Below are positions 1,603 to 54,332 of a stretch of 64,000 bases of DNA, in pieces; position 1 is the stretch's first letter; each line of letters opens with the position of its first letter. Both the position numbers and the translations under genes were made by a program. The notes beneath the pieces were generated by a model. It searched no databases and was not told the origin of the DNA. It was given only the letters and a program-made list of their open reading frames with translations. The DNA comes from Sipunculus nudus (lineage: Eukaryota; Annelida; Sipuncula; Golfingiida; Sipunculidae): positions 9,549,464 through 9,613,463 of the forward strand of contig CM049320.1 in the NCBI GenBank assembly GCA_026874595.1. The letters are read 5' to 3'.

Positions 1603-2450
1603 ATGGAACTGTCACTTAATGAATTTATGCCAAGGAATTGTGGAGGCTTGGTCAAAAATGGTTTCCTAAATCTCATCACTTTAGAGACGGATTCAGATGG
1701 TGTAAAAATTGAAAATATAGACCGCTCATCTTACTATACTCATAACCACTCAAATGATATTTTATGTAGTAGTCAGAATATTTCATTTTCGGTTCTATCA
1801 TTAAATTGCCAAAGTCTGAATTCTGAGTTCGATAAGCTTCATATTCTTGTCGAATCATGCAAACAATATGGCTATCAAATTGATGCAATATGACTTTGCT
1901 AGACGATAATTCGATATATGTTTGTTGCAACTAGTAAACTGCAACTCTATATCACAAGGCAAATCGGCTTCGCAGCATAGCGGTCTTATGAATTATTGCA
2001 TCAGAAACATTCGTTTAATATTTGTATTGTTTAAATGAATCTGAACTTTGGGAAGGGTTGATAATTAACGTTGAAAATAAAAGCAATAGCGAAAAACGTA
2101 TCTTGTTGGCCAACATCTATCGCCCTCCGAAAGAAAACAACAGCAATACAACCGTGCGTGCTTTTATAGATGAAATTGATCTGTTATTTCAGGAACTTAA
2201 TCGTAGCAAGTCTAATATTATTTCAACTGGCGATTTCAATATCGATCTTTTGAAAATTAGAGAAAAGGAGAGTTATGGTCAGTTTCTGGAAACTTTTCTC
2301 GCACACAATTTAAGGCCTACTGTCACATTTCCCACCTGCTTTAGCACTTTCGGTGCTACTCTGATTGACAGCACATTTGCCAGCATATCTGATAAGTCTT
2401 TGTACTCTGCTGGCATTCTTATCAATCTTATCATTCTCATTCAATATTAA
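1603..2450 (+). pseudogene. LINE ORF2 N-terminal part: AP-type endonuclease, broken
   Basis: The 1603-1893 frame ends with SVLSLNCQSLNSEFDKL, the usual first motif of LINE apurinic-like endonucleases. After a stop and frame change, 2022-2450 continues with LLANIYRPPKE, then STGDFNIDLLK (the GDFN motif) and TFGATLIDSTFA (the ID motif close to the catalytic end). This domain nicks target DNA to prime reverse transcription. About 130 bp between the two frames has lost coding continuity, and the C-terminal SDH box is not visible before the frame ends. The copy is inactive. Confidence 0.8.
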
Positions 2451-2454
2451 TCGA

Positions 2455-3860
2455 CAGCGTGTGACCAAGAAATATTCAATTACAAATCATTTTACCAAGT
2501 ATCTTGGGGAAATAGGTTGTAAGATGGCAGATAGTATACCTGAAACATTAAACGTACATTTTACAGATTATCTTGAACAACGTGGAACAATGGCTTTGTG
2601 TTAAAGGCTGTTACAAACAAGACAATTAAAGAAACAATACAGAGTCTTCCCACAAAATCAAGTTGTGGATATGACGGGTTGTCCACCAAGTTGTTGAAAA
2701 GACTTGAACCTCTCATAAATGATCCATTAAAATTATTATTACTCAGTCCTTACGCACTGGCATTATCCCTGACAATTTGAAAATTGCAAAAATTACCCCT
2801 CTACCTAAAAAAAATGATACACATTTACCAGAAAATTATCGTCCGATTTCAATCCTACCTTCAATGTCAAATGTACTTGAGAAAATCGTCTATGATCATT
2901 TATACATTTTTTTTGTTGAACATTACTTGCTGAATTCTAGTCAATATGGCTTTCGAAAAAAATTATTCTACAGAATATGCAGTACTTGAGGTCATAGATA
3001 TTATTACCAGCAGCATAGATCAGGTGTTTTTCACCTCTAGCCTTATTTCTCGATCTGTCAAACGATTTTGACACACTAGATCATAATATTTTAATTCGGA
3101 AACGTAAATATTATGGCTTACGTGACACTTCGTTGCCATTGTTCGAAAGTTATCTGAGTAAACGTAAACATTATGTTGAAATTGGCTCAATAAAATCAAA
3201 ATCACGCTCTCTATCAACAGGTGTGCCACAAGGATCAGTCTTAGGTCCCCTATTATTAATTATATACATTAATGATATCAACAAGTCATCTTCTTTCTTT
3301 CGATTCATTATTTATGCTGATGATACAAATCTTGTGATCCCCGCCACAATTTTAAATCGCAAGACACGCATAAAATTAATGAGGAATTAGAAAACATTTA
3401 TCAGTGGTTATGTGTAAATAAACTTGTAAATAAATCTTGGAATATCATTAAAACTAAGTAAATTATTTTTCACAGCAAAAGAAAAAAAGGTTTATGAAAA
3501 TGTAACAAAATTAGAATTTAACGCTTTGCTATTAGGAAGAGTGGACGAACTCAATTTCCTTTAACATTTAAGTTGGGATCAATATTTAAACAAAATCGCC
3601 TTAAAAATTTCTAAATGTATTGGTATTCTAACTAAGCTTAAACATTACTTACCCGTATATATACTCAGGACTTTATACAATAGTTTGATTTTACCTCACC
3701 AGAATTACGGTATATTTGCATGGGGGTTTAAAGGCAACAATAATTTTTAAGCTAAAAAAAGGGCAGTGCGTACGGTGACAAGCAGTAAATATAATGCTCA
3801 CCCAGAACCACTTTTTAGGCACTCGAAACTTTGCGAGTAGAAGATATATTTACTCTAAAT
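2455..3860 (+). pseudogene. LINE ORF2 reverse transcriptase and C-terminal region, broken
   Basis: Successive frames give the RT lead-in (SSCGYDGLSTKLLK near 2,660), KIAKITPLPKK and ENYRPISILPSMSNVLEKI (2,777-2,900), QYGFRK (2,941), a D-x-SxxFDT box near 3,060, GVPQGSVLGPLL (3,220-3,260) and the catalytic YADD at 3,313-3,324. Downstream, 3,560-3,850 encodes a C-terminal remnant with KHYLPVYILRTLYNSLILP. This enzyme copies element RNA at the nicked target. At least five frameshifts or stops disrupt it. Confidence 0.85.
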
Positions 3861-21781: not shown

Positions 21782-21911
21782 TCCATCTATCTATCTATTC
21801 AATATTGTCCAATCCCATCAATCCCCCAAATATCTATCTATCTCTCTATCGGTCTCTCTGTCATTCTGTCTGTCTGTCTGTCTATCTATTTATCTATCTA
21901 TCTATCTAAAA
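21782..21911 (+). repeat. (TATC)n/(TCTG)n microsatellite
   Basis: Interrupted tetranucleotide array directly abutting the 3' end of the - strand LINE; on that strand it reads as a (GATA)n-type tail. Confidence 0.9.
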
Positions 21912-21997
21912 GGTAGAGTTACCCTCCGGTGTAAATTGCTCTAAAGCTTTCAAACAAGGCCAGAGCGATATAACACTGAAGAAAAACAACAATGTAA

Positions 21998-22045
21998 ATT
22001 CACTACAGACCGTTTCACGGGATGCGACCCGATCATCAGGTGAAT
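21998..22045 (-). ncRNA. Hammerhead ribozyme motif in the LINE 3' end
   Basis: On the - strand the 48 nt read: stem I 5' strand ATTCAC, core CTGATGA, stem-loop II with CGGG/CCCG pairs around TCGCAT, core GAA, a mini stem III (ACG/TGT around a GTC loop), cleavage nucleotide A, then stem I 3' strand GTGAAT. All conserved core nucleotides of a type I hammerhead are present. The first position of stem II is a U-U mismatch. Short-stem-III hammerheads are known from Penelope-like retroelements; here the neighbour is LINE coding sequence. Activity is untested. Confidence 0.7.
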
Positions 22046-22793
22046 GTTGTTGGAATGAGGCTTACGGCGTGGTTTGAAAAAAAGCCGAGACTTTACGACT
22101 TTACGAGATTATGCTTTGTGCGTCGCAGGGAGAGTAAGAGAATGACTGACACTGATCCTATTGTCATCGGAGACAAAATAGAGAGCTTGTAAATGATATA
22201 TTTGTCTTTTAGGGTCCAGATGTGTTTAGACAGCTAAGTGTTTTAAGCATCGATCCGTCACGAAAGGAAAGGATTGTTTATGGTTATTGTATCTGGTCTT
22301 AAAATCACCTTCGGTACACCATATGTAGTATTTCTCCTCATTGTCTGTGCTAACTGTTGCCTTATAGACAATCCATCTCAGCTGACATTGACCATTCATA
22401 GGACATTCATCTTATTATGGCAGTTACATTGTTTTACAGGTACATTTACAGCTTTCTTGGTATTTAGGACCTTCATATTATGTTTGCAAATTATGTTAGT
22501 CATGTTGGGTAAACAGCTATAGCTAATTTTCATATTGTTCCTGTTGAATGGCTCATGGTACCTGTGATGTTTTGGGAAGTGTTTTTCAACTAGTTTCATT
22601 AATTGTCAGCCAATGTTGGTTTTTACGTGATGGCTGTAGGGGGGATTTTACCAATATCATTTTCTTTTTCCTGTTTCTTTTGCTTTACACTGCGGGTTCA
22701 ACATGTTTAAAGCTTTCTGAGGACCCGCTTTTCGCTAAAGCGTTGTCATACATGGGTTTGGTTTTCATGAATAGCTCTTCATTGCAACAGGTG

Positions 22794-24718
22794 TCAGATA
22801 CACGCTTGCTGATCATCATAGGTATCTGCCTGATAATTGCTGAAGGGTGAATGAATTGTGCGTGGATATATGGCGGATCCTTTTTTGGTTTCTGTAAGGG
22901 CAGAAAATGTCATTTTGGAGGTCAATGTTACGTCTAAGAAATCTGTGCAGGTCAGGTCAATTTTAATGGTTATTTTTAACCAAACATGGGAAAAGAGTTT
23001 GATCATTTTCTTAGGGGTGCTGTCCGCTTTAGGTCCAGACATGTTGGGGAAACATGTATGTTGGCGATACTTGTATTTATAACCTTTCTTTGCAATAACC
23101 CTTTCGATCATCTCATATTGATTAAACATCGCACAAAAACCATCCACGTGGCATAAATCTGCCTTGTTTCTGTATGAGAACACCATGTATTGATACAACA
23201 ATATAATATGATTGATCAGACTACTCCGCGGCCCAATATGTATAATCCCTGTGAGTATATTCAATTTTGTACAACTTGGCAGGTCGACCTTTAATGTTCC
23301 TAATTTATTTTTAATTGGTAGATATAATGAAAACGGTACTTTGCATTCACAAAAAAGGTGGGCAATACTTTCGTTGTATAGAAAACAATAACTACATCTA
23401 CTCGAGTCAAAGATTTTCTATCTTTTCAGTACGACATTAACAGGCAATTTATTGTGTAAAAACTATATTGAAAAGCCTGTAACCTCGTATCAATAGTTGT
23501 ACCGAAAACAGTTTTGTATACATTTTCCCAGTTAACGTCGGCGTTAACACACTTCTCTATATGACACCTCCCAGTTGGAATTTCCAAATATTTTCAATAT
23601 TATTCTACTACATATGCCTTTGGTGCTAATCTTATCTATAATCACCTTACTATCTTACTTACTACCTTACAAGTGGTATAAATGTATGTTCCGAAGCTGT
23701 AAGTATATCCGACGACTATCTAAGTATTTGTAGCCACGCTTTTCTAATTGTATGTTTAAATTTAAGCCAATTGAACACCTTTGACTTGGGTACTTTTAGA
23801 TCACTCAACACTTTAAATTTGCCCGGTTATATCAACTAAACCTTTTATATCGTTCAATCCTTTTTCTAAAAAAATCCTCAAAATATATCGATTCCCTGTT
23901 AATTTTTATATACCTGTTATTCCACAAGGATTTTTCTAGAACAATGACCTTATCGAACGGGTCACTCTCGTACAGATCACACCATTCAGATAAACAAAGT
24001 TTATAAAATAAAGGCACCGCTCATTTAATTCTTGCTTTATCCAGTTTGTACCTGGCACATTGAACCCATTTTTTTGTAGGATAGAAACGGGGTATCAACT
24101 TCCATAATTGTTCTTCCTTTTCAAAGTATTTTTTTTATCCAGAGTATCCGACGTGCCTTCACCATACTGGCCAAAGTCGATAACCCCAATCCCCCATTCT
24201 CTTTTTTTATTGAATAAGAACCTTGTATTTAATTTTTGGGACGCCGCCATCCCATATAAAATCGGCCACATTATCCTTCACTTTACTGATAAAATTCTTT
24301 GGTGGAATTAACACATTACACACGTGCATAGCTTTTGGTAATATGAGAGATTTCAAAATGGATGTCTTTCCGTATAATGTTAAGTTGCGAATCTTCCACA
24401 TTCTTAGGCTTGACCTGATAGTATCAATTATCTTATCAAAATTTCTTATATTACTTAGTTCTTTGTTTTAAGATATATCTTTTCCAAAAATCCTTATGTA
24501 TTCTACGTTGAGATCCTCACATTTATAAGCTAGATCTAGCTTCGGTTGATTCCTAGATTCTCCTATCCACGCTATCTCAGATTTCTAACGATTTAGTTTA
24601 AGCGAAGAATTCTTTCCAAATAGATATAATGCCTTCTCTAATTGTTTCTGAGACCATGGTTTTGACACAAATGTGTGGGATTTCATAAGTAGATCGTCTG
24701 TGATCGAGGGGTAAAAAA
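22794..24718 (-). pseudogene. LINE ORF2, RT end to C-terminal zinc-knuckle region
   Basis: Reading downward from 24,718, a TDDLLM box (a changed YADD) is followed by SSLKLNR and KSEIAWIGES near 24,580. Next comes MWKIRNLTLYGKTSILKSL (24,401), then NVADFIWDGGVPKIKYKVL (24,230). A Cys-rich knuckle (CSYCFLYNESIAHLFCEC) lies near 23,370, and SSLINHIILLYQYMVFSYRN near 23,220. This is the thumb and C-terminal layout of L1/Tx1-type ORF2. The last 156 codons (23,264-22,794) are an uninterrupted frame; upstream there are several frameshifts. It lacks most of the RT and all of the endonuclease. Confidence 0.75.
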
Positions 24719-24889
24719 TCAATGATATTAAACTTTATGAACTTTGATTTTTGTTTCAGCTATAATTTCTTGAACCAGGAAATAACTTGTGCTCGTATTT
24801 TGCCAATGGCTGAGATTGGTTTTCAGTCTCATTTGGCTATTTTTTTCTCAGTGCTTTTTGCTAATGATAGCAATATTGGATTTTACCAA

Positions 24890-25045
24890 AACAGTAGGAT
24901 TAGTGTCAGTCATTCACTTGCTCTCCGCGACACCCACAAAGCATAATCTCGTAATCTTGTAATGTCTCGGCCTGTTCAAATCACGCCGTTTGCTTCATTC
25001 TAACAATATTCCGGTCGCATCCCGTGAAACAGTCTGAGTGAACTT
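24890..25045 (+). repeat. Inverted copy of the LINE 3'-end segment with degraded hammerhead
   Basis: The reverse complement of this stretch matches 21,985-22,160 in order (CAGACTGTTTCACGGGATGC, AACGGCGTG, ACGAGATTATGCTTTGTG, GAATGACTGACACT), with about 15-20% differences. The ribozyme part has lost the CTGATGA core; only GGTCGCATCCCGTGAAACAG remains. Its outer end runs into a TATC array. The LINE is therefore bracketed by terminal inverted repeats of about 160 bp. Confidence 0.75.
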
Positions 25046-25052
25046 ACAGTGT

Positions 25053-25112
25053 TACGTATCTATCTATCTATCTATCCATCTATCTATTTATCTATCTATC
25101 TATCTGTCTAAT
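25053..25112 (+). repeat. (TATC)n microsatellite
   Basis: Tetranucleotide array with a few interruptions, flanking the inverted copy of the LINE 3' end. Confidence 0.9.
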
Positions 25113-29589: not shown

Positions 29590-30330
29590 GAAAATGAACT
29601 CACAGTGGACTCACAGTGAGCTCACATATGATCTCACGGTGTGAGGTCACAGGGAGCTCAATCTGTAAATACCTTCAGACATCACAGTGATCTCACGGTG
29701 TGAGTTCTCAGTGAGGTCACAGTGTGAGGTCACAGTGATCTCACAGTGTGAGTTCTCAGTGAGGTCATGGTCTGAGGTCACAATGATCTCATAGTGTGAG
29801 TTCTCAGTGAGGTCATGGTCTGTGGTCACAGGGAGCTCACAGTGTGAGTTCTCAGTGAGGTCATGGTCTGTGGTCACAATGATCTCACAGTGTGAACTCA
29901 CAGATGTTCTCATGTTAAGAGATCACAATGAGCTCAGTTTGTAACCATCTTTAGACATCACAGTGATTTCATGGTATGAGTTCTCAGTTAGGTCACAGTG
30001 TGAGGCCACAGTGATATCACTGTGTTTTCATTAAGGTTATGATCTGTGGTCACAGTGATCTCACAATATGATTTCTCAGTGAGGTAATTTCTTGGGATCA
30101 CAGTGATCTCAATATGCGAGTTCTCAGTGATAGCATAATCAATCAAAGTCTCTTATCATAGAGGTCATGTTCTTGGATGACAGAAAGCGAACTTTGTGAG
30201 TGTCATAGAGGTCATCCTGTGGGGTCACATTTGTGTAGAAGAAGAGTCCAAAGTAATGTCACAGTGTGAGATCACAGGTAACTCACAGTATGGGAACACA
30301 GTGCAGTCAAAAGTGTGAGGTCACAGGTAT
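29590..30330 (-). repeat. 48-bp minisatellite, about 14 diverged copies
   Basis: The best copies (29,690-29,890) repeat at exactly 48 bp: GATCTCACAGTGTGAGTTCT, then CAGTGAGGTCATGGTCTGTG. Flanking copies are more diverged and vary in length. Each unit contains an internal dyad (CTCACAGTGTGAG). Because the period is a multiple of three, the - strand stays open for 88 codons with a 16-residue repeat (SHCEIIVTTDHDLTEN). No coding evidence beyond that. Confidence 0.9.
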
Positions 30331-37068: not shown

Positions 37069-37964
37069 TTGGCTCAAATAGGACACCTTTAAAACTAGAT
37101 TCAACGACCATAAAATCTCATTTTTCAATGCAGCTAGTAAATAACTCAGTTAAAATACCTGGTGACTTAAAGAGAGCAACGTGCTCCATAATAAACGAAT
37201 TCAAACCTACTCCCCGGCAACAAATAGATGCAATGTTTGCCTCTGGGAAAAATGTTTATCTCATGCGAGCTTGAACTTGCAACTATTAACGAACGAATTG
37301 ACCTTGTGAAGTCATACAGGCGCACATAAATAAACAGACAAACTAACACCAAGCAAGCGAAAATAAACAGCTTAGCACAGGGGTGCTATAATAATTTCAA
37401 GTTAACTTATACGCAAGCCCCCACCCCTCACGACTTGGTTACAATACGTTCAGATAAACCAAATTTTACAGTTGAATGTAAACTCAGTGAACTTACAATA
37501 AACTGAGCCCCCCCCCCGCAACCTGAGCTTACAACAACGAACTAGACACTATTAGGATACATCTAGTGACTGCCAAACGCTCTGTGGTACGAAACTAGTA
37601 ATTAGTAATTTAATGTCTGAAAAAAAACTTATTTCAATCCATTCTGCATAACTATAGAAGTAGGTGCCAATCCAACCAATTGAGTCTTGTTATAAAACAA
37701 TTCCAAGTGAACCATTGGTCATGACGCTAAGCATACTAGTGTGACATTGCAGCGAACGATTCACAACTGTAAATCATATCTTTGATAACGGATTGTAATT
37801 TTGATTATAATTAGACGAGGACAGGGATATTTGTCTGCTTAATGCTTTAGTCTACAGAGGGCCCCAAAAGCGCCCATAGAATTAATTCATTTTGATATAT
37901 TCTAAGAAATCAAAGATATTGTGTATATATCCATATATAACTCTGAAGAAAAACAACACTGTTA

Positions 37965-38012
37965 ATTCACAACAGACTGTTTCACGGGATGCGACCCGAT
38001 CATCAGGTGAAT
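37965..38012 (-). ncRNA. Hammerhead ribozyme motif, left arm
   Basis: Mirror copy of the motif at 38,032-38,079. In a - strand transcript it reads ATTCAC, CTGATGA, stem-loop II, GAA, mini stem III ACA/TGT around GTC, then U and GTGAAT. Folding would compete with the perfect 86-bp hairpin formed with the other arm. Confidence 0.65.
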
Positions 38013-38031
38013 GTGGTTAGAATCTAACCAC

Positions 38032-38079
38032 ATTCACCTGATGATCGGGTCGCATCCCGTGAAACAGTCTGTTGTGAAT
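38032..38079 (+). ncRNA. Hammerhead ribozyme motif, right arm
   Basis: Stem I strands are 38,032-38,037 (ATTCAC) and 38,074-38,079 (GTGAAT). The core CTGATGA is at 38,038-38,044. Stem-loop II covers 38,045-38,060 with four G-C pairs. GAA is at 38,061-38,063. Mini stem III is 38,064-38,066 with 38,070-38,072 around loop GTC. The predicted cleavage nucleotide is T38073. This is a type I layout with a very short stem III. Confidence 0.7.
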
Positions 38080-38178
38080 TAACAGTGTTGTTTTTCTTCA
38101 GAGTTATACCGCTCTGGCCTAGCTTGTAGGCCATAGAGCACTTTACATCGGAGGGTAACACTACCTTCTATTCTATAT

Positions 38179-38180
<2 letters not shown>

Positions 38181-38242
<62 letters not shown>
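38181..38242 (+). repeat. (TA)n microsatellite, copy 1
   Basis: About 30 TA units directly after the palindromic insertion; the equivalent array in copy 2 is at 43,846-43,905. Confidence 0.95.
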
Positions 38243-38245
<3 letters not shown>

Positions 38246-38814
38246 CGAGTTCTGAAAAACCAGCTATAATTAACGGAAATTTCATGAAATTCACACTGGT
38301 GATTAAATAGGCTCAAAATCACGGACAGTTGCTGGTAAATAAATAACATGTCGACTTACTAGGGGACAGATAGCACATTTCTGTGTAAATGCAGATTCAA
38401 TCTGACTGGTAGTTACCAATGGAATAATACTGCACACAAGAATAGAGGACAAACTCATTCCGTATAACCTGAATAACACCAGAAAGAATATAAATAGACT
38501 GGTTAAAGCCAGGTCCTAGTTAACCTATCACGTGGGATGACCATAAATAACAAAACAATACATTTAAACATTGACTAGTAAAGAAAAACGTATCTGATCT
38601 GAATAAAAACACACCAATGATCGAAGGCAAATCCGATTAGTTTGCTTTTGCAGGTAAAAGGGTTCCATGTTTTATTTATGTTTTTTTTTTCTATTTCTCC
38701 AGATTCTTAAATATAAAAGGACAAAAAAATACCATATGAATTTGTAAATAAAATTTTCTTTCCATAGATAACTCTCCCATTATCTGGGTTAATAATGTCC
38801 ATCAACTACGGAAA

Positions 38815-39670
38815 ACAATATAATCATAAACATGGACATTTTCAAGATCAGTAGATTCAGGATTAATCTGTTCATATGTATAAAGTGATTGTGATAACTT
38901 TAAAATGAGGAGAAACTGTACATCATCAATTCTCATTTAGAATTGTCGGGTACAAAAAGTCAAACCGGTCATGAGCAGCACGATGAGGGGTGGTCAGTAT
39001 TTCACTGTAAGGGGAACAACAGAATATCACGTACGGTGCCATTAGAAACGACGAGCTATTTCCGATTGTATTCCCCAGTTGTATTCATCGGATGGACGTT
39101 CATGGTTTATGGCTGCTCTTCCGGTACTCCTTTGGCGGTGCCGCAAAGGATCATCTTACTGCTGGTGCGGTTAAATAAGAAACGTAAAATAAATAAAACC
39201 GATCCATCATTGGAACCCCACCTCGCATGTGGCGCCTCCTGGTGGCCGATGTTCTCAGTTTGGACTGTTTCGTGATACGTACGTGTCGCAGTTGCCATAC
39301 TGTCGGAAAGAGATTATAGTATAATTAGCAGAGTGGTTGCGTAAGAAAGCCCTTTCCTTTTGTGTGCACGATCACGTGACAATTTGCAACTGTTCTGTAC
39401 CTCAGGGAGTGGAGGGCGGGAAACGTGATGGGTCCAAGTACCTTATCTGAGCTAATCCATCCTCACCCTTCTCGAGAAATCAAACTAACATAAAGATATC
39501 TTATTGGGGAAAAAATTGCAATACAGAAAAATAGCTGTCCAGGAAGAGTGTGAACGATACAGTATGACGGTAATCTCACCAAGAATACCTCTGAAACTAT
39601 AGCCTTTATTGGATGGCTGCTCTGTGAGCTTGGAGGGTTCAAACTAACGCCAAATAGATGTGCTTTATTA
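38815..39670 (+). repeat. Module A of a threefold ~850-bp repeat (unit 1)
   Basis: Shares ordered blocks with modules B (39,704) and C (41,165): AATCATAAACATG, GAGGAGAAACTGTAC, GTGCCATTAGAAACGACGAG, GGATGGACGTTCATGG, a GTGGCGCCTCCTGGTGG motif, GTGACAATTTGCAACTGT, CTCGAGAAATCAAACTAA, and an end block GCCTTTATTGG...GGAGGGTTCAAA. Divergence between modules is about 20-25%. Copy 2 carries it at 44,478-45,333. Confidence 0.8.
39229..39245 (-). promoter_or_regulatory. CTCF-like motif, module A unit 1
   Basis: The - strand reads CCACCAGGAGGCGCCAC, one mismatch from the bilaterian CTCF core CCASYAGRKGGCR. Copy at 44,892-44,908. Confidence 0.4.
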
Positions 39671-39703
39671 CTAGGCTTTAAACCATAAACTAATGAAAAC
39701 CAT

Positions 39704-40562
39704 ATAATCATAAACATGACCATTTTTAAGACTAGCAGATTAAGAATTCAGCCATTCATAAGTATAAAGGAATTGTAGTTAATTCAAATGAGGAGAAACT
39801 ATACATTTTTAGTTCTCTGTCAGAATTGTCGAGTACAAAAAGACAAACCTGTCTAGAGTAGCCCCTGATGGGAAGGTGGCCAGTATATGTCATTATTAGG
39901 GGAAAAACAGAACGTACACGTACAATGCCATTAGAAACGACGAGCTACTTCCTGTTGTATTCCACGGATGGACGCTCATGGTTTATTGTTGCTTTTCCTG
40001 TATCCTATTGGCGTTGCGGCAAAGGATCACCCGACTGCAGGTGCGATTATATGTGACTGCAAGAGAAATAAAGCAATCCACCATCAAAATCCCACCTCCC
40101 ATGTGGCGCCTCCTGGTGGACGATGATCTCAGGATCGACTATTTCGTGATACGTAGCGCAGGTGCACGACTGTCGGAAGGAGATTATAATATAACAAGAA
40201 AGTGGTTGCGCAAGAAAACCCATTCCTTTTTGTGCTTGGTTACGTCACAATTTGCAACTGTTCTGTACCTCAGGGAATGTAGGGCGGTAAACTTTATGGT
40301 CCAAAGTACCTCAACTGAGCCAATCCATCCTCACTCTGCCCGAGAAATCATAACTAACAGAAAGATATCTGATTGGTAAAACATTGAAATACAGAAAAAT
40401 AGCTAACCAGAAACAGTGTAAAATGGTGATATGGTGTGACCTCAAGATTACCTCTGAAACAATAGCCTTTATTGGGAGGCTGCAAAGTGGTTTTGGAGGG
40501 TTCAAAGGAAAGTCCAATCTATGTGATTCATAGCTAAGTTTTCCATCATTAACTATAGCCTG
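39704..40562 (+). repeat. Module B of the threefold repeat (unit 1)
   Basis: Same block order as module A with similar divergence. Open frames here (for example 40,311-40,568, - strand) are by-products of the shared sequence. Copy 2 carries it at 45,367-46,225. Confidence 0.8.
40103..40119 (-). promoter_or_regulatory. CTCF-like motif, module B unit 1
   Basis: Identical 17-mer to that of module A although the modules around it differ by about 20%. Copy at 45,766-45,782. Confidence 0.4.
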
Positions 40563-41164
40563 TTCCACTACCCCTGTCCATCTGAATTATAGCGATTATC
40601 CCTACATAAGACAAACTTGCCAAACAAAATTTGGACCAATTGCATAAAGAGGCAAATGCGTAATATTTGGTACCTTATATTGTTTACTTTACAGCCCGGA
40701 AGACATGCCTCATATATTTCTGTGGTTCACGGCATCCCTGATAAGTGACCTTTGTTTACCCTCCTTGGATATGGATATAATGTAATGTGACGTAACAGTG
40801 AAGCGCGTGCACACGGGAAGTCTCACTGTAAACAGAAGTCGGCAGGTCTTGATAATTGGTCCCATGAATGTTGGTGCCTCTTTAGTACGTCATGTGTATT
40901 ATGACGTAATCATCATTCCCTAATATGCCCATTTCACCGATCAGTGGCAAGATGTCGCAAAAGAATAGACTAGTTACACATCCAATGGTTTTAAATTATC
41001 TACAGTGAAATGACATAATGTAGTTTATTATTTCCATAATTGTTAATTACGCATTTACCTCTTACCTGCCCCTAGGACAAACAGTTTTGCCTTCCATAAA
41101 CTAGTAAAATATATAATTGCGAATAAGCAGGTGGACAGGGTCGCTGGAACGGACTGAAATGGAA

Positions 41165-41985
41165 GCCATATAATCATACAAATGTAGATTTTCAAAATCA
41201 GTAATATTAAGCCATTCATAAGTATAATGGAATTGTAATAACTTTAAAATGAAGAAAAACTGTACTTCTTCAGTTCTCTTTCATAATTTTCGAGTACAAT
41301 AAGTCAAACCGGTCAAGAGAAGCCCCTGATGGGAAGGTAGTCTGTATGTCATTGTTAGGGGACCAACTAAACGTACACGTACGGTGCCATTAGAGACGAC
41401 CAGCTACTTCCAAATGGATTATCCAGATGGACATTTAGGGTTTATGGTTGCTCTTTCGGTATTCTCTTGGCGATGCGGCAAAGGATCATTGGACTGGCTG
41501 GTGCGATGAAATGCGAAAGTAAGATAAATAAATCCACCCGCCTTCGAAATCCCACCTCGCATGTGTTGCCTCCTAGTGGCCAATGATCTCAGCATCGACT
41601 TTTCCAGATATGTGACTTAGATGCCAGACTGTCGTAGAGGTATTATAATATAACCAGCAGAGTTGTTGCACAATAAACTCCATTCCTTTGTGTGTATAAT
41701 GACGTGACAATTTGCAACTGTAGGGTGGGAAACTTGATGGTTCCAAGTGCATCGTCTGAGCAAATCCATCCTCACTCTACTCGAGAAATCAAAACTAATA
41801 GAAAGATATTTTATTGGGAAAACATACAGAAAAATTAACTGATCAGGAACAGGGTGAAAAGGTGATACAGTGAGACAGCAATCCAACAAGAAATATCTAC
41901 GAAACAATAGCCTATATTAGGAAAGTGCATAGTGAGTTTGGAGAGTTTGAAAGAACTGTGATTCATAACTAAACAGCCCGTTCAG
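41165..41985 (+). repeat. Module C of the threefold repeat (unit 1)
   Basis: Third, more diverged module. It is separated from module B by about 600 bp of unrelated sequence. Copy 2 carries it at 46,828-47,648. Confidence 0.8.
41563..41579 (-). promoter_or_regulatory. CTCF-like motif, module C unit 1
   Basis: The - strand reads CCACTAGGAGGCAACAC, still matching the core with one mismatch. The unit 2 copy (47,226-47,242) has CTCGG in place of CTAGG, which should weaken it. Confidence 0.35.
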
Positions 41986-42161
41986 ATACACTAAAATATT
42001 CTTAAAAGCAAACATTTTTTTTTCTTTTTAACTGTTTATCGATATATTGGGCTATTGTATACTTTTATTATAATTCTTCCGCCACAAGCTTCCAATCATT
42101 AATCATGAATCAATATGGTATATAATTTCATATAAGTATATTAACAATTTTTGGTATATGG

Positions 42162-42178
42162 CCATCAGGGGGCGCTGC
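42162..42178 (+). promoter_or_regulatory. CTCF-like motif, opposite orientation, unit 1
   Basis: CCATCAGGGGGCGCTGC on the + strand matches the CTCF core with one mismatch. The copy in unit 2 lies at 47,825-47,841. It faces the opposite way to the three module motifs. Confidence 0.4.
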
Positions 42179-43843
42179 ACTTTAAACACTAAAATATTTC
42201 ATTATTGAGCCATACCTCCAAAGCTATAAATGATATTGTAATTTTTATTACTGCATCTAAACCTAAAAGCAATTGTGAAATTCCCATGAAGATTTGGTCA
42301 TGTTCTGATAAAATCAAGTTGACCTAATTAAGGTCAAAACTTGTTGGAGTATGAAATATTCAGATATTTCTATACCTGACACTGGCCATAGTTTCTTGCA
42401 ATCCCTTCGAAACATATCCTGTTGGCAAATATCTATTATTGCATCTGACCTATTTTACTTTGTCAAGATGGGTCGAAGGTCAAATGTCAAGGTGCCTCAG
42501 GACTATGCCTCAACTTTGTATGGATTTGGTCTAGGTGAATTTGAATTTGTTAGAGTCAATTTTCTACAACTTATTTAAAGAGGTAAATTTTTTTTACGCC
42601 CGTCTATGACGGAGATATTATGGTATGGGCAGCTGATACTATAGTTTTTTGTTATAATAAATATAACCAGTCTAAAAATGATCATGCATTATATCAGTAT
42701 AATAATATGACTACTCCCACCTGGGGGGCTATGGGCAACAGGGTCATTGGTGTATTGCTGGTATCTTGTTTCATTGTAATAATGTGCACCCAGGTGTCTT
42801 GTGTACTCCCTGAATTCTCCCTTCTATCGTTTTCACTGCCTGGGTTTGCATCAGTAACAAGAGCTATCTGCAAGTATAATCCTGCCATTAACAAAACATA
42901 CTCTGCTTGTAAGTACTGCATGACCCAGCCTGCTACTCCAAAGACTCTGGCAGAAGTCACTTCATTCGCCTTTGAATTTGTGTTCTTGGCTCAAATAGGA
43001 CACTAGATTCAACGACCATAAAATCTCATTTTTAAATGCAGCTAGTAAATAACTCAGTTAAAATACCTGGTGACTTAAAGAGAGCAACGTGCTCCATAAT
43101 AAACGAATTCAAACCTACTCCCCGGCAACAAATAGATGCAATGTTTGCCTCTGGGAAAAATGTTTATCTCATGCGAGCTTGAACTTGCAACTATTAACGA
43201 ACGAATTGACCTTGTGAAGTCATACAGGCGCACATAAATAAACAGACAAACTAACACCAAGCAAGCGAAAATAAACAGCTTAGCACAGGGGTGCTATAAT
43301 AATTTCAAGTTAACTTATACGCAAGCCCCCACCCCTCACGACTTGGTTACAATACGTTCAGATAAACCAAATTTTACAGTTGAATGTAAACTCAGTGAAC
43401 TTACAATAAACTGAGCCCCCCCCCCCCCCCCGCAACCTGAGCTTACAACAACGAACTAGACACTATTAGGATACATCTAGTGACTGCCAAACGCTCTGTG
43501 GTACGAAACTAGTAATTAGTAATTTAATGTCTGAAAAAAACTTATTTCAATCCATTCTGCATAACTATAGAAGTAGGTGCCAATCCAACCAATTGAGTCT
43601 TGTTATAAAACAATTCCAAGTGAACCATTGGTCATGACGCTAAGCATACTAGTGTGACATTGCAGCGAACGATTCACAACTGTAAATCATATCTTTGATA
43701 ACGGATTGTAATTTTGATTATAATTAGACGAGGACAGGGATATTTGTCTGCTTAATGCTTTAGTCTACAGTGGGCCCCAAAAGCGCCCATAGAATTAATT
43801 CATTTTGATATATTCTAAGAAATCAAAGATATTGTGTATATAT

Positions 43844-43845
<2 letters not shown>

Positions 43846-43905
<60 letters not shown>
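43846..43905 (+). repeat. (TA)n microsatellite, copy 2
   Basis: Equivalent of the 38,181 array; no palindromic insertion beside it. Confidence 0.95.
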
Positions 43906-43908
<3 letters not shown>

Positions 43909-44477
43909 CGAGTTCTGAAAAACCAGCTATAATTAACGGAAATTTCATGAAATTCACACTGGTGATTAAATAGGCTCAAAATCACGGACAGTTGCTGGTA
44001 AATAAATAACATGTCGACTTACTAGGGGACAGATAGCACATTTCTGTGTAAATGCAGATTCAATCTGACTGGTAGTTACCAATGGAATAAAACTGCACAC
44101 AAGAATAGAGGACAAACTCATTCCGTATAACCTGAATAACACCAGAAAGAATGTAAATAGACTGGTTAAAGCCAGGTCCTAGTTAACCTATCACGTGGGA
44201 TGACCATAAATAACAAAACAATACATTTAAACATTGACTAGTAAAGAAAAACGTATCTGATCTGAATAAAAACACACCAATGATCGAAGGCAAATCCGAT
44301 TAGTTTGCATTTGCAGCTAAAAGGGTTCCATGTTTTATTTATGTTTTTTTTTTCTATTTCTCCAGATTCTTAAATATAAAAGGACAAAAAAATACCATAT
44401 GAATTTGTAAATAAAATTTTCTTTCCATAGATAACTCTCCCATTATCTGGGTTAATAATGTCCATCAACTACGGAAA

Positions 44478-45333
44478 ACAATATAATCATAAACATGGAC
44501 ATTTTCAAGATCAGTAGATTCAGGATTAATCTGTTCATATGTATAAAGTGAATGTGATAACTTTAAAATGAGGAGAAACTGTACATCATCAATTCTCATT
44601 TAGAATTGTCGGGTACAAAAAGTCAAACCGGTCATGAGCAGCACGATGAGGGGTGGTCAGTATTTCACTGTAAGAGGAACAACAGAATATCACGTACGGT
44701 GCCATTAGAAACGACGAGCTATTTCCGATTGTATTCCCCAGTTGTATTCATCGGATGGATGTTCATGGTTTATGGCTGCTCTTCCGGTACTCCTTTGGCG
44801 GTGCCGCAAAGGATCATCTTACTGCTGGTGCGGTTAAATAAGAAACGTAAAATAAATAAAACCGATCCATCATTGGAACCCCACCTCGCATGTGGCGCCT
44901 CCTGGTGGCCGATGTTCTCAGTTTGGACTGTTTCGTGATACGTACGTGTCGCAGTTGCCATACTGTCGGAAAGAGATTATAGTATAATTAGCAGAGTGGT
45001 TGCGTAAGAAAGCCCTTTCCTTTTGTGTGCACGATCACGTGACAATTTGCAACTGTTCTGTACCTCAGGGAGTGGAGGGCGGGAAACGTGATGGGTCCAA
45101 GTACCTTATCTGATCTAATCCATCCTCACCCTTCTCGAGAAATCAAACTAACATAAAGATATCTTATTGGGGAAAAAATTGCAATACAGAAAAATAGCTG
45201 TCCAGGAAGAGTGTGAACGATACAGTATGACGGTAATCTCACCAAGAATACCTCTGAAACTATAGCCTTTATTGGATGGCTGCTCTGTGAGCTTGGAGGG
45301 TTCAAACTAACGCCAAATAGATGTGCTTTATTA
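44478..45333 (+). repeat. Module A (unit 2)
   Basis: Equivalent of 38,815-39,670, nearly identical. Confidence 0.8.
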
Positions 45334-45366
45334 CTAGGCTTTAAACCATAAACTAATGAAAACCAT

Positions 45367-46225
45367 ATAATCATAAACATGACCATTTTTAAGACTAGCA
45401 GATTAAGAATTCAGCCATTCATAAGTATAAAGGAATTGTAGTTAATTCAAATGAGGAGAAACTATACATTTTTAGTTCTCTGTCAGAATTGTCGAGTACA
45501 AAAAGACAAACCTGTCTAGAGTAGCCCCTGATGGGAAGGTGGCCAGTATATGTCATTATTAGGGGAAAAACAGAACGTACACGTACAATGCCATTAGAAA
45601 CGACGAGCTACTTCCTGTTGTATTCCACGGATGGACGCTCATGGTTTATTGTTGCTTTTCCTGTATCCTATTGGCGTTGCGGCAAAGGATCACCCGACTG
45701 CAGGTGCGATTATATGTGACTGCAAGAGAAATAAAGCAATCCACCATCAAAATCCCACCTCCCATGTGGCGCCTCCTGGTGGACGATGATCTCAGGATCG
45801 ACTATTTCGTGATACGTAGCGCAGGTGCACGACTGTCGGAAGGAGATTATAATATAACAAGAAAGTGGTTGCGCAAGAAAACCCATTCCTTTTTGTGCTT
45901 GGTTACGTCACAATTTGCAACTGTTCTGTACCTCAGGGAATGTAGGGCGGTAAACTTTATGGTCCAAAGTACCTCAACTGAGCCAATCCATCCTCACTCT
46001 GCCCGAGAAATCATAACTAACAGAAAGATATCTGATTGGTAAAACATTGAAATACAGAAAAATAGCTAACCAGAAACAGTGTAAAATGGTGATATGGTGT
46101 GACCTCAAGATTACCTCTGAAACAATAGCCTTTATTGGGAGGCTGCAAAGTGGGTTTGGAGGGTTCAAAGGAAAGTCCAATCTATGTGATTCATAGCTAA
46201 GTTTTCCATCATTAACTATAGCCTG
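45367..46225 (+). repeat. Module B (unit 2)
   Basis: Equivalent of 39,704-40,562, nearly identical. Confidence 0.8.
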
Positions 46226-46827
46226 TTCCACTACCCCTGTCCATCTGAATTATAGCGATTATCCCTACATAAGACAAACTTGCCAAACAAAATTTGGACC
46301 AATTGCATAAAGAGGCAAATGCGTAATATTTGGTACCTTATATTGTTTACTTTACAGCCCGGAAGACATGCCTCATATATTTCTGTGGTTCACGGCATCC
46401 CTGATAAGTGACCTTTGTTTACCCTCCTTGGATATGGATATAATGTAATGTGACGTAACAGTGAAGCGCGTGCACACGGGAAGTCTCACTGTAAACAGAA
46501 GTCGGCAGGTCTTGATAATTGGTCCCATGAATGTTGGTGCCTCTTTAGTACGTCATGTGTATTATGACGTAATCATCATTCCCTAATATGCCCATTTCAC
46601 CGATCAGTGGCAAGATGTCGCAAAAGAATAGACTAGTTACACATCCAATGGTTTTAAATTATCTACAGTGAAATGACATAATGTAGTCTATTATTTCCAT
46701 AATTGTTAATTACGCATTTACCTCTTACCTGCCCCTAGGACAAACAGTTTTGCCGTCCATAAACTAGCAAAATATATAATTGCGAATAAGCAGGTGGACA
46801 GGGTCGCTGGAACGGACTGAAATGGAA

Positions 46828-47648
46828 GCCATATAATCATACAAATGTAGATTTTCAAAATCAGTAATATTAAGCCATTCATAAGTATAATGGAATTGTA
46901 ATAACTTTAAAATGAAGAAAAACTGTACTTCTTCAGTTCTCTTTCATAATTTTCGAGTACAATAAGTCAAACCGGTCAAGAGAAGCCCCTGATGGGAAGG
47001 TAGTCTGTATGTCATTGTTAGGGGACCAACTAAACGTACACGTACGGTGCCATTAGAGACGACCAGCTACTTCCAAATGGATTATCCAGATGGACATTTA
47101 GGGTTTATGGTTGCTCTTTCGGTATTCTCTTGGCGATGCGGCAAAGGATCATTGGACTGGCTGGTGCGATGAAATGCGAAAGTAAGATAAATAAATCCAC
47201 CCGCCTTCGAAATCCCACCTCGCATGTGTTGCCTCCGAGTGGCCAATGATCTCAGCATCGACTTTTCCAGATATGTGACTTAGATGCCAGACTGTCGTAG
47301 AGGTATTATAATATAACCAGCAGAGTTGTTGCACAATAAACTCCATTCCTTTGTGTGTATAATGACGTGACAATTTGCAACTGTAGGGTGGGAAACTTGA
47401 TGGTTCCAAGTGCATCGTCTGAGCAAATCCATCCTCACTCTACTCGAGAAATCAAAACTAATAGAAAGATATTTTATTGGGAAAACATACAGAAAAAATA
47501 ACTGATCAGGAACAGGGTGAAAAGGTGATACAGTGAGACAGCAATCCCACAAGAAATATCTACGAAACAATAGCCTATATTAGGAAAGTGCATAGTGAGT
47601 TTGGAGAGTTTGAAAGAACTGTGATTCATAACTAAACAGCCCGTTCAG
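46828..47648 (+). repeat. Module C (unit 2)
   Basis: Equivalent of 41,165-41,985; carries a substitution inside its CTCF-like motif. Confidence 0.8.
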
Positions 47649-47824
47649 ATACACTAAAATATTCTTAAAAGCAAACATTTTTTTTTTCTTTTTAACTGTT
47701 TATCGATATATTGGGCTATTGTATACTTTTATTATAATTCTTCCGCCACAAGCTTCCAATCATTAATCATGAATCAATATGGTATATAATTTCATATAAG
47801 TATATTAACAATTTTTGTATATGG

Positions 47825-47841
47825 CCATCAGGGGGCGCTGC
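47825..47841 (+). promoter_or_regulatory. CTCF-like motif, opposite orientation, unit 2
   Basis: Identical to 42,162-42,178. Confidence 0.4.
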
Positions 47842-48282
47842 ACTTTAAACACTACAATATTTCATTATTGAGCCATACCTCCAAAGCTATAAATGATATT
47901 GTAATTTTTATTACTGCATCTAAACCTAAAAGCAATTGTGAAATTCCCATGAAGATTTGGTCATGTTCTGATAAAATCAAGTTGACCTAATTAAGGTCAA
48001 AACTTGTTGGAGTATGAAATATTCAGATATTTCTATACCTGACACTGGCCATAGTTTCTTGCAATCCCTTCGAAACATATCCTGTTGGCAAATATCTATT
48101 ATTGCATCTGACCTATTTGACTTTGTCAAGATGGGTCGAAGGTCAAATGTCAAGGTGCCTCAGGACTATGCCTCAACTTTGTATGGATTTGGTCTAGGTG
48201 AATGTGAATTTGTTAGAGTCAATTTTCTACAACTTATTTAAAGAGGTAAATTTTTTTTACGCCCGTCTATGACGGAGATATT

Positions 48283-48717
48283 ATGGTATGGGCAGCTGAT
48301 ACTATAGTTTTTTGTTATAATAAATATAACCAGTCTAAAAATGATCATGCATTATATCAGTATAATAATATGACTACTCCCTCCTGGGGGGCTATGGGCA
48401 ACAGGGTCATTGGTGTATTGCTGGTATCTTGTTTCATTGTAATAATGTGCACCCAGGTGTCTTGTGTACTCCCTGAATTCTCCCTTCTATCGTTTTCACT
48501 GCCTGGGTTTGCATCAGTAACAAGAGCTATCTGCAAGTATAATCCTGCCATTAACAAAACATACTCTGCTTGTAAGTACTGCATGACCCAGCCTGCTACT
48601 CCAAAGACTCTGGCAGAAGTCACTTCATTCGCCTTTGAATTTGTGTTCTCAGTATATCTCTGCTTTCTGTTCATATCACTGCCTTCAGTTCATTATGTTA
48701 TTCCTTCATCTACCTGA
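48283..48717 (+). CDS. Open frame, 144 codons, unrecognised
   Basis: The frame spans the right edge of the duplication (48,649); in copy 1 it is cut after 128 codons by the junction (42,620-43,006). The predicted product has a hydrophobic segment (VIGVLLVSCFIVIMC) and several cysteines (CKYNPAIN...CKYCMT). The - strand across the same bases is also open for 105 codons, so the coding strand, if any, is unclear. No family is recognised. Confidence 0.2.
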   Translation: MVWAADTIVFCYNKYNQSKNDHALYQYNNMTTPSWGAMGNRVIGVLLVSCFIVIMCTQVSCVLPEFSLLSFSLPGFASVTRAICKYNPAINKTYSACKYCMTQPATPKTLAEVTSFAFEFVFSVYLCFLFISLPSVHYVIPSST

Positions 48718-50229: not shown

Positions 50230-50306
50230 TGCAGTGGTTTTGTTGTATTGTCATTTTTTTATGTACTCGCAGATGAGGATGCAGGCATTTTTGGAGCAAG
50301 CCGAGG

Positions 50307-51250
50307 ATGCGCAGCTCTTTAAAGAATGGAATGAGGAGAAGCTCATTAAAACATGGAGCGAGGAAAAGAACCTCTGTAAAAATGCACAGTATAAATTGCA
50401 GGATGGAAGAGGACGTCATTAATAAATGCAGCGGGCAAGAGCATCTCATAAAAGAGGGATGCTCATCAAGAAAATGGCAGAAGGGACTTGGAGAAGTATC
50501 GATGAAAACTATCAAATCAGTGTATACTGATGATTATCACTTGGAATTGTACATGGAGTGTAGAAAGATATTGCAGGAATACTGTAGTTACTTGGAATAT
50601 TGCCGAAATCTATGTATGTTCAGTGTCTTTGCTGGATTGTATATGATTATTATTGTTTTGAGAAGTGGTGACATTGAAGTTAATCCTGGACCTCGAACAA
50701 AAAAGCAAAGTGTTGAAATGAGAATTAAAAGAGAGCGTGAAAGAAAACGGAAGGAAAGAGAAAATGAAACGGAACATAAAAAGAAATGTAGGTTTGAAAC
50801 TGTTGCAATAAAAATGAAAGAAAAGAGAAAATCTGAAATGGCAGAGGAACGATCACGCAGGTTACAGTCTGATCGAAAAACAAAAAAGAAAAGCAGGCAA
50901 TGTGAGGCTTCAGAAAAAAAGGCAGAGAGATTAGAGACTAAAACACGAAAAATGTGAGAAAACAGAAAATGTGAAATACCAGAAAAGAGCCATGGAGATT
51001 AGAAATTGTAAAAGAAAATAGAAGCGAATAGAGCAGCTGAAACACCAGAAAAAAGATCAGAGAAGTTACAGACTGTTAAAATTAAAATGGAAGGGAATAG
51101 AGCAGCTGAAACACCAAAGAGAAGATCAGAGAGGTTACAGACTGTTAGAATTAAAATGGAAGCTAATAGAGCAGCTGAAACACCAGAGAAAAGATCACCG
51201 ATGTTACATTCTGATAGACAGAAGAGGAAAGAGAAAAGGGATATTTCAGA
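50307..51250 (+). pseudogene. Helentron N-terminal region with 2A-like motif and basic repeats
   Basis: A 216-codon frame (50,307-50,957) contains a hydrophobic stretch (FSVFAGLYMIIIVL) directly followed by RSGDIEVNPGP. DIEVNPGP (50,670-50,693) fits the ribosome-skipping consensus D(V/I)ExNPGP. The sequence then becomes lysine/arginine-rich. After a stop at 50,957 it continues in a shifted frame as three repeats of about 23 residues (NRAAETPEKRSEKLQT, NRAAETPKRRSERLQT, NRAAETPEKRSPMLHS), typical of Helitron/PIF1-type transposase N-termini. If active, the 2A would release the first ~128 residues as a separate peptide. Confidence 0.65.
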
Positions 51251-51970
51251 CATGGATAGTCAGTGTCGGTGTTTAAAAAATGTGCGATCTGGACCAATTT
51301 ATGTTTGCACGTGTTGCCATAGATTTATGTAGAGACAAACGTAATTTTATATAAAGAAAGTAGATACAGTAAATTTTCTGAAGCTGAGATTAATGAAACC
51401 TTGCTGGCGTTCATTTATAAAACAACTGATAATAATATATATATGTGTGTAACATGTGATAGATCCCTGAAAAGGGGAATGGTACCAGGGCAAGCAAAAG
51501 CAAATAATTTGCAACTGGATAAATTGTGCAGAGAGATGTCAGATTTGTGTAATATAAAAGTAAGGCTGCTGTCAAAGAGAATCCCATTCATGAAAATGGT
51601 TGCCTTGCCTAGAGGAAATCAAACAGCTATACATGGTCCAGCTGTGAATTGTCCGACGAAACTGAACACTATATGCCATATTTTGCCAAGATTACCAAAA
51701 GATGCACAGATCATTCCTATGAAACTCAAAAGAAGGCTGGTGTATAAAGGTAATTATATGTTTGACAGTGTGAGACCAGAAAGAATGTTAGCTTCTTTGT
51801 CCTGGCTGAAAGATAACAACATGTTGTACAGTGACATATCTATTAATTATGACTGGATACAAGGCTGGCAGCAGGAAGATCCTGAACTGTGGCATGCTAT
51901 GAGTGGCGTTTTAGTACCGTTAAAAGACGAAGGAAAAATAAAGGAAAATGAAGGGAACCAAATGCGTTGA
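51251..51970 (+). pseudogene. Helentron Cys-rich and DUF6570-like region
   Basis: CRCLKNVRSGPIYVCTCCHR (about 51,265-51,325) is a cysteine-rich start. After an in-frame TAG (51,330) and a shift, 51,401-51,970 continues with MCVTCDRSLKRGMVPGQAKA, KLCREMSDLCNIKVRLLSKR, PRLPKDAQIIPMKLKR and ASLSWLKDNNMLYSDISI. This block precedes the OTU or Rep region in many animal Helitron-like proteins. Its biochemical role is unknown. Confidence 0.7.
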
Positions 51971-52079
51971 ATGAAAATGTAAACATGATTAAGATGAATG
52001 ATGAAACTAGCAACATTAAACAGTTCTTGACAGGCTCGAAAAAAAAAAAAAGATTTATAAGGATGCAACCATTATGCAC

Positions 52080-52610
52080 ATACATTAGAGAATTTAGAAC
52101 AGCTTTGTCACAGTGAAGGTTTTGAAATTGGTGATGTCGAAGGTGATGGAAATTGTTTGTTAAGATCTGTAGAAATGCAATTACTAAATCGAGGTGTAAG
52201 AATAAGTAATGTGGAACTTCGACAGCAGCTGGTGGAATACCTGGGAAAAAAATCTAAATGGTCCGACAGGAGATATCCCCTACAAAAATTTTATTGCTAA
52301 CAGAATACCTGAACATGGTGATACTGAGGTGAAATGTGATTTAGATAAGTATGTTGAAGAGGTAGATAATTTAGAAGACAGACTTGAGCTACAGTGGCAA
52401 AGATATTTACAAGACCTGGAAAAAGGTTCCTGGGGTGACCATATTGCTGTACAAGGAATGACTGACATGCTACAGGTGTCTATGAGAATAGTAGGGACAG
52501 TGAACCCTGAAACTGTAATTGAACCAAGTGATAGGAATAACACAATGACTTTGAATTTAGGTTTGATTGGTCAGACGCATTATGTGTCTTTAAGAGTGAA
52601 GGCAGTGCCA
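52080..52610 (+). pseudogene. Helentron OTU-type cysteine protease domain
   Basis: EGDGNCLLRSVEMQLL (catalytic Cys codon 52,154-52,156) is the hallmark OTU motif. It reads in one frame to about 52,250. A run of seven A (about 52,244-52,256) then shifts the frame, and the domain continues as WGDHIAVQGMTDMLQVSMRI and NLGLIGQTHYVSLRV, where the His is the expected second catalytic residue. OTU domains are deubiquitinases and occur N-terminal to Rep in some Helitrons and Helentrons. Apart from the A-run frameshift, both catalytic residues survive. Confidence 0.8.
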
Positions 52611-52814
52611 GTAAACTATACTCTAGCAAGTCCTACAAAGATAACTGCAGAGATGGGGAGCAGGATGAAAAGTAACACAAATAGTTCTGTAGAAGTAAAC
52701 GTATCTGATGACGTGAATGTTAAAGCAGCTGAAGATGATCCTGAATTTGAACAAGAGAGTAAAGCTTTTGAACAGTCAGCAAAGTTGAGAGGTTTGCCAT
52801 TTGATATTGCCTTC

Positions 52815-54330: not shown

Positions 54331-54332
54331 GC

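Follow-up and report, generated by a model that had tools for sequence, protein, structure and literature searches.

A hammerhead ribozyme motif close to a LINE-like fragment raises the question of which mobile element it belongs to. The motif lies on the minus strand of a 64-kb window of the Sipunculus nudus genome (the whole stretch of DNA that we analysed), and the original prediction had placed it at the 3' end of the LINE. The motif as such was confirmed: 21998-22045 holds a minimal type I hammerhead core, reading ATTCAC-CTGATGA-T-CGGG-TCGCAT-CCCG-T-GAAA-CGGTCTG-TA|GTGAAT on the minus strand, with the predicted cut (the bar) between 22004 and 22003. The features of a minimal type I hammerhead are present, that is CTGANGA, GAAA, A15.1-U16.1, H17 and stems I and II, and the first pair of stem II (10.1/11.1) is a U-U mismatch. 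A type I descriptor (stem I of at least 6 bp, CTGATGA, stem II of at least 4 bp, GAAA and U-H) matched three times in the window, at this motif and in both arms of a second insertion at 38.0 kb, the three matches being relatives of one another and not independent; 300 first-order Markov resamplings of the window gave one match in total.

The very short stem III and the presence of the hammerhead in several insertions were likewise borne out. It had further been claimed that the 38.0-kb copy keeps the core and differs at stem III and at the cleavage nucleotide, and this part stands: the cut is GTT and not GTA, and the stem III strand carries A and not G. The step from there to a maintained fold is weakly supported, with 2 of 48 positions differing between the 22-kb and 38-kb copies in the motif, compared with 16 of 99 flanking positions (p 0.057 in Fisher's test). 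A third copy, inverted and located at 25.0 kb, no longer has CTGATGA and U-H.

Judged from the sequences that surround it, the owner of the hammerhead is a Penelope-like element (PLE), which is decayed in the window and has the LINE-like piece nested inside it (Table 1). As reference we used one 2.92-kb tandem unit from the same genome (locus L011), the DNA identity of which to the window pieces is 85-86%. Positions 952-1170 of this unit correspond to 24869-24650 of the window (84.8% DNA identity), 1394-2265 to 23054-22181 (86% DNA identity; tblastn E 5.5e-60) and 2918-3172 to 22164-21912, and four window pieces share 74-85% protein identity with the L011 frame. The remnant at 22181-23054 comprises what we take to be the RT thumb, the CxC linker and a GIY-YIG-type endonuclease, and it also matches a second PLE-like sequence, the contig L001 described below (E 1.9e-26; the reversed-query control was empty in the window). 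Upstream of the LINE-like piece, three collinear RT matches lie in three frames with scores of 56, 53 and 49, compared with 300 shuffled queries for which the 95% level was 40 and the largest score 53.

The 207-aa minus frame (about 22794-23417) that had been read as LINE ORF2 turned out to be a fusion, with PLE coding sequence from about 23051. The LINE-like piece itself gave a zf-RVT match at E 0.017, below the cut-off; presumably it is a LINE, an assignment that we take from the original prediction beside this sub-cut-off match. A 98% identical copy about 68 kb away (L030) has a gap of 1596 bases at the same place, compared by size only.

Table 1. Features of the window that bear on the hammerhead and on the 38.0-kb insertion.
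Feature	Position	Strand	Details or basis
TATC repeat adjoining the PLE tail, probable target	21831-21908		sequence
Pseudo-LTR of the PLE with 3' tail	21911-22164	-	3' end formed by stem-loop GGTA-ACTC-TACC, followed closely by the GATA repeat
Hammerhead motif	21998-22045	-	stem I 22045-22040/22003-21998; core CTGATGA 22039-22033; stem II; GAAA; short stem III
PLE reading frame remnant, frames broken	22181-23054	-	tblastn and DNA identity to the L011 unit; also L001
LINE-like fragment nested in the PLE	23055-24649	-	1595 bases; replaces L011 unit 1171-1393
PLE RT remnant including FYPSITDDLL	24650-24886	-	84.8% DNA identity over 24869-24650
Inverted truncated pseudo-LTR copy with decayed hammerhead	24891-25053	+	sequence comparison
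TATC repeat adjoining the inverted pseudo-LTR, probable target	25057-25110		sequence
Target duplication, left copy, 14 bp	37926-37939		TATATCCATATATA
Head-to-head palindromic PLE insertion, 232 bp	37940-38171		left arm 37940-38021; right arm and tail 38023-38171
Hammerhead motif, left arm	37965-38012	-	descriptor match
Hammerhead motif, right arm	38032-38079	+	descriptor match
Target duplication, right copy, 14 bp	38174-38187		TATATCCATATATA
Empty site, single TATATCCATATATA	43839-43852		tandem duplicate, 98.9-99.5% identical

The window contains further mobile elements. A different LINE lies at 2019-3390 (+; endonuclease PF14529 at E 3e-7 and RVT_1 at E 1.6e-12, in separate frames), and a Helitron-like element at 50277-56781 and 62811-63257 (+; Helitron_like_N at E 6e-28, DUF6570 at E 1e-15), part of which is repeated with 99.8% identity at 62109-64000. 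Decayed remnants of a PLE endonuclease were seen at 37085-37258 (+; tblastn E 2e-4 with the L011 frame) and 43005-43160 (+; E 0.028 with L001).

To follow the family through the genome, the 1.43-Gb assembly was searched with the 260-bp pseudo-LTR; the best 40 of 2770 candidates were scored and 42 matches listed. At two of these loci, L010 and L011, units of about 2.92 kb are repeated directly in tandem, each pseudo-LTR with a hammerhead. L011 contains an open stop-to-stop frame of 713 codons with FDIVDFYPSI, YRDDG and IVYKATV..YIGCTEG..RYNNH, which we regard as PLE motifs. PLE coding sequence lies beside the pseudo-LTR at 12 of the 24 other distinct loci, the rest being short stretches or giving no match. 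Searches of Pfam and PDB with the PLE protein returned no meaningful relative, and its structure prediction was of poor quality and gave no usable model; the name PLE rests therefore on these motifs and on the published anatomy of such elements, which is found here in the form of tandem pseudo-LTR units, an optional tail, an AT-rich target with a short duplication and a hammerhead in the leader.

In the L011 unit the hammerhead occupies positions 123-170 of the leader 5' of the frame, with the core at 129, the predicted cut after 164 and the ATG at 344. The stem-loop of the tail starts 85 nt past the predicted cut and the insertions end 94 nt past it; in tandem copies the sequence continues beyond this point. 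Two alternative ends are used, a short one at unit 3113-3115 (L022, L024, L028) and a long one mostly at 3174-3177. Of 20 dispersed copies with the long end, 17 run into TA-rich repeats, two into the GATA repeat (the window copy and its near-duplicate) and one into neither, and an inverted partial pseudo-LTR stands at the 5' side in the window, L022 and L024. Because a dispersed copy stops about 94 nt beyond the predicted cut, it has at its 3' end the leader of the next unit together with the hammerhead, and it is for this reason that the hammerhead looks like part of a "3' UTR" in the window. The core is well kept in the family: in 34 extracted copies, which include near-identical tandem ones, CTGATGA was found in 32, GAAA in all 34 and U-H in 33, and these three together with stem I in 30.

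The assignment to a LINE 3' end was thus not borne out, and the whole-genome copies, in which the pseudo-LTR lies beside PLE coding sequence elsewhere, go further than the proviso of the original prediction that the segment might belong to a PLE merely adjacent to the LINE: the LINE-like piece sits inside the PLE. It is extremely improbable that the hammerhead is a functional part of a LINE 3' UTR, for which its strand and its distance of about 750 bp from the stop of the 22794-23417 frame could be quoted, since PLE sequence lies to either side of the LINE-like piece and begins directly after it, where a 3' UTR belonging to that piece would have no space, and since tandem PLE arrays carry the pseudo-LTR without that piece. 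What had been taken for a hammerhead in a LINE, which would be surprising, is corrected to a hammerhead in a PLE, where such motifs are already known.

Outside the S. nudus assembly, the hammerhead motif and the PLE protein had no match in viral contigs, tblastn of phage sequences gave none, and a first scan of genome contigs was also empty. A second scan yielded L001, a contig of 3787 bases filed under a bacterial MAG. It holds two head-to-head copies, 92% alike, of an RT-endonuclease-like frame and, 125 nt past the stop codon, a hammerhead-like stretch of a kind that was also matched in 18 of 200 shuffles of L001. The contig is probably eukaryotic contamination.

The insertion at 38.0 kb is a perfect 165-bp palindrome with a tail and carries one hammerhead per strand. 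Its left arm (88 nt) and its right arm with the tail (148 nt) match the L011 unit at 100%, and because of this identity to the PLE leader we rejected a Helentron or an inverted-repeat transposon as its source; we take the miRNA matches at 38.0 kb to reflect the palindrome. The insertion is flanked by a target duplication, and the corresponding empty site is preserved nearby: when 248 bp are removed, 273 bases compare with 271, and the alignment puts the difference in an AT repeat, as far as visible. The two sites belong to a tandem duplication of about 5.7 kb (37094-42986 and 43002-48649, 98.9-99.5% identical), the halves of which differ in the presence of the 232-bp palindrome. Within this duplication (38799-47610) a unit of about 840 bp recurs several times, the copies being 75-79% alike.

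The 38.0-kb copy is one of many. When it was used as query, the best 40 of 2030 candidates were scored and all 40 were full-length matches of 96-100% identity on many contigs, the set being chosen by similarity to this single copy. The outer ends are fixed, with ACTCTGAAGA at the left end and ACTACCTT in the tail in 30 of 30 copies, and variation is concentrated at the centre of the palindrome, apart from which 22 of the 30 are identical. Target duplications could be delimited in five of 30 copies, which have flanks other than pure (TA)n, and measured 10-11 bp there (L035, L045, L048, L053, L055). The centre was readable in 35 of the 40 and fell into 16 junction types, three of which account for 22 copies; in 11 a filler of 1-6 nt separates the arms. 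The template ends lie at unit 111-115, most commonly at A112, within TCATTCT, which is an initiator-like word. Read in RNA sense, the filler beside A112 is G in six of six left arms and in five of seven right arms stopping there, small numbers that were noticed after the fact.

Outer ends that are constant and a centre that varies agree with an origin from two cDNAs, which start at two priming sites and are joined where the template ends. In the mechanism that we propose, the hammerhead would cut tandem read-through transcripts between units, best as a dimer. Reverse transcription would be primed by both ends of a broken AT-rich target, at two set positions that lie 32 and 94 nt beyond the cut; the two cDNAs would extend toward the 5' end of the RNA and then be joined head to head. 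A template transcript starting near unit 112 would give short cDNAs and, with them, a 232-bp palindrome like that at 38.0 kb; longer head-to-head junctions elsewhere in the unit were seen in L017, L022 and L024. Taken together, a Penelope-like retrotransposon with a minimal type I hammerhead is very probably the best explanation, palindromes from two-site priming included. We lean, with less assurance, to the specific reading that the 232-bp palindromes are footprints of single insertions, each made by two fixed primings, with cDNAs running to a capped 5' end (TCATTCT, A112) and joined there, sometimes with filler; a filler G next to A112 is possibly a copy of the cap. If this is true, the palindromes collected in a genome show where the RNAs really used by PLEs have their 5' ends, and in the 232-bp class the RNAs used reached the transcript start, uncut by the hammerhead. 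The palindromes also bear on the choice between two-ended priming and self-priming in PLE integration.

It seems improbable to us that the 232-bp palindrome is instead a propagating non-autonomous element, similar to a retrozyme or a MITE and copied whole by the PLE machinery. Such an element would account for the fact that at least 40 full-length, nearly identical copies are spread over many contigs, for the copies that agree outside the centre (22 of 30) and for the predominance of three centre types among the readable copies. However, a palindrome that is copied whole would not be expected to vary mainly at its centre, and the central variation therefore counts against this explanation: the number of junction types and the filler of up to 6 nt look as if the arms had been joined anew each time. 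The complete identity of both arms to the L011 unit also speaks against it.

A second alternative accepts single insertions and has the head-to-head junction arise by self-priming of one cDNA (snap-back), not from two separately primed cDNAs. We find this doubtful. In its support, the arms match nearly perfectly, L055 carries a mirrored pair of changes (C20A/G146T), and the palindromes at inverted junctions in Adineta are explained by self-priming in the available text of PMC3846280. A variant template would explain L055 equally well, though, and snap-back leaves unexplained why the left and right arms have different, fixed end points in all 30 copies (a set picked for its similarity to a single such copy) and why filler lies between the arms in nearly a third of the readable ones (11/35).

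For two separately primed cDNAs, the position of the junction indicates how far the template reached, and whether this was cut or uncut RNA can be asked from sequence alone in the S. nudus genome, since it offers tandem open-frame PLEs together with 91 sites at one leader position. These 91 are pattern sites centred at the leader start, not each confirmed as PLE, and the reversed-pattern control gave 2. Centred on the predicted cut, three PLE palindromes were found (L071, L073, L074; a fourth site, L072, is unrelated), and five PLE palindromes at a control position 5-9 nt downstream of the cut. The comparison of 91, 3 and 5 is rough because length and gap were not the same in the three patterns, which makes these unequally strict, and the control position is not clean because in three of its five sites one arm extends to the cut nucleotide. 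Sites are in strong excess at the leader start; at the cut, with three copies against five at the control, no clear excess is seen, and for the same reason we do not claim that cut-centred palindromes prove cleavage in vivo. Given the arms that reach the cut nucleotide at control sites, a small share of the templates may have been cut. In the 232-bp palindromes both arms run through the hammerhead, so the RNA that served as their template was not cut there, which agrees with the in vitro use of mainly unprocessed RNA by the anole PLE (PMC11167929). Around L072, on another contig, there are repeats that by eye look similar to a 48-bp tandem repeat of TCACAGTGAGGTCA-like words at 29682-29903 of the window.

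These results lead to the catalytic status of the motif. The check with Rfam covariance models proposed for the original prediction gave no hammerhead match: no family reached its gathering score in the whole window, and hammerhead families were not listed even at E 10 for the whole window or for short stretches. Rfam may be insensitive to minimal hammerheads, because the motif of L001, which is truncated where the contig stops, scores 18 bits with RF00008 (E 0.17) against a gathering score of 48.5. In nearest-neighbour folding the minimum-energy structure differs from the hammerhead, with -16.6 versus -7.0 kcal/mol for the 22-kb copy and -11.3 versus -6.9 kcal/mol for the 38-kb copy. The stem III strand ACAGTCTGT is computed to pair with itself at 8 of 9 positions in a dimer, and the variant in the 22-kb copy has the same self-pairing, two G-U pairs included. 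Because this strand (ACAG-N-CTGT) is nearly self-complementary, we infer that the dimer would be the best cutting form. Small PLE hammerhead variants and their cleavage as dimers have reportedly been described by Lunse et al. in 2017 and by Cervera and De la Pena in 2014. Cleavage of PLE hammerheads as dimers is also stated in the available part of PMC7761336, a review that there calls the role of the PLE hammerhead unknown.

It is quite conceivable, if not the reading we favour, that the core is a non-catalytic relic, or is retained just as a DNA- or protein-binding sequence in the context of the priming site, and that self-cleavage has no part in the PLE. The U-U at 10.1/11.1, the weak stem III and the empty Rfam search fit this, as do the uncut templates of the 232-bp palindromes and the lack of a clear excess of palindromes centred on the cut. 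In the accessible text of PMC11167929, hammerhead mutants of the anole PLE insert normally in vitro and the main in vitro substrate of that element is unprocessed RNA; the same text, however, has the anole hammerhead cleaving once protein is added. Against a relic, 30 of 34 copies retain stem I as well as the core, GAAA and U-H, and the stem III strand is nearly self-complementary in both copies computed; dimer cleavage reported for PLE hammerhead variants, and the arm that stops at the cut nucleotide in three of five control sites, also count against it.

Hammerheads in PLE pseudo-LTRs are already known from the available portions of PMC6155905, PMC7229834 and PMC7761336, and inverted pseudo-LTRs with palindromic junctions from rotifer PLEs (PMC3846280, as far as its text was available). 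The hammerhead in a PLE is therefore a known association and the 232-bp palindromes are less expected: the accessible PLE and hammerhead literature yielded no description of uniform short palindromes or of a junction spectrum, which may exist in its other parts.

A close parallel is the anole Poseidon-type PLE (PAc), as described in the available sections of PMC11167929. It has the same tandem units, pseudo-LTR and leader hammerhead. Its cut lies 26 bp into the frame and reverse transcription starts 111-118 bp in, that is 85-92 nt past the cut, which compares with 85-94 nt in Sipunculus. Both elements have an AC-rich stem-loop (loop ACAC/ACTC in Sipunculus), and they are also alike in the two RT start sites that give rise to a "tail", in AT-rich targets and in the extension of both DNA strands. 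They differ in the start of the frame, which is 179 nt past the cut in Sipunculus and at stem II in PAc, and in the tail, which measures about 60 nt in Sipunculus and 30-40 in the anole; 232-bp palindromes are present in Sipunculus and are not mentioned for PAc in those sections.

The small PLE hammerhead variants, as far as the available descriptions go, share with our motif the minimal type I core, the near absence of stem III and the location in PLE pseudo-LTRs. Host and sequence are different. Metazoan non-LTR retrozymes (PMC7229834, in the available text) are similar in being short non-coding repeats with type I hammerheads and a proposed dependence on PLEs. However, they are tandem repeats that make circular RNA, whereas in the 232-bp copies the two arms stand head to head as a palindrome flanked by a target duplication, and the head-to-tail arrangement of retrozymes was not found among the short copies.

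The Penelope elements of Adineta vaga, in the accessible part of PMC3846280, resemble the Sipunculus PLE in the inverted 5' pseudo-LTR, the one-sided optional tail, the head-to-head palindromes and the capture of unrelated sequence between pseudo-LTRs. Their target duplications are 8-10 bp long, compared with 10-14 bp in Sipunculus, and that part of the paper mentions no hammerhead, unlike what we find here. The junction is attributed there to self-priming, whereas in Sipunculus the fixed priming sites and the filler favour two cDNAs.
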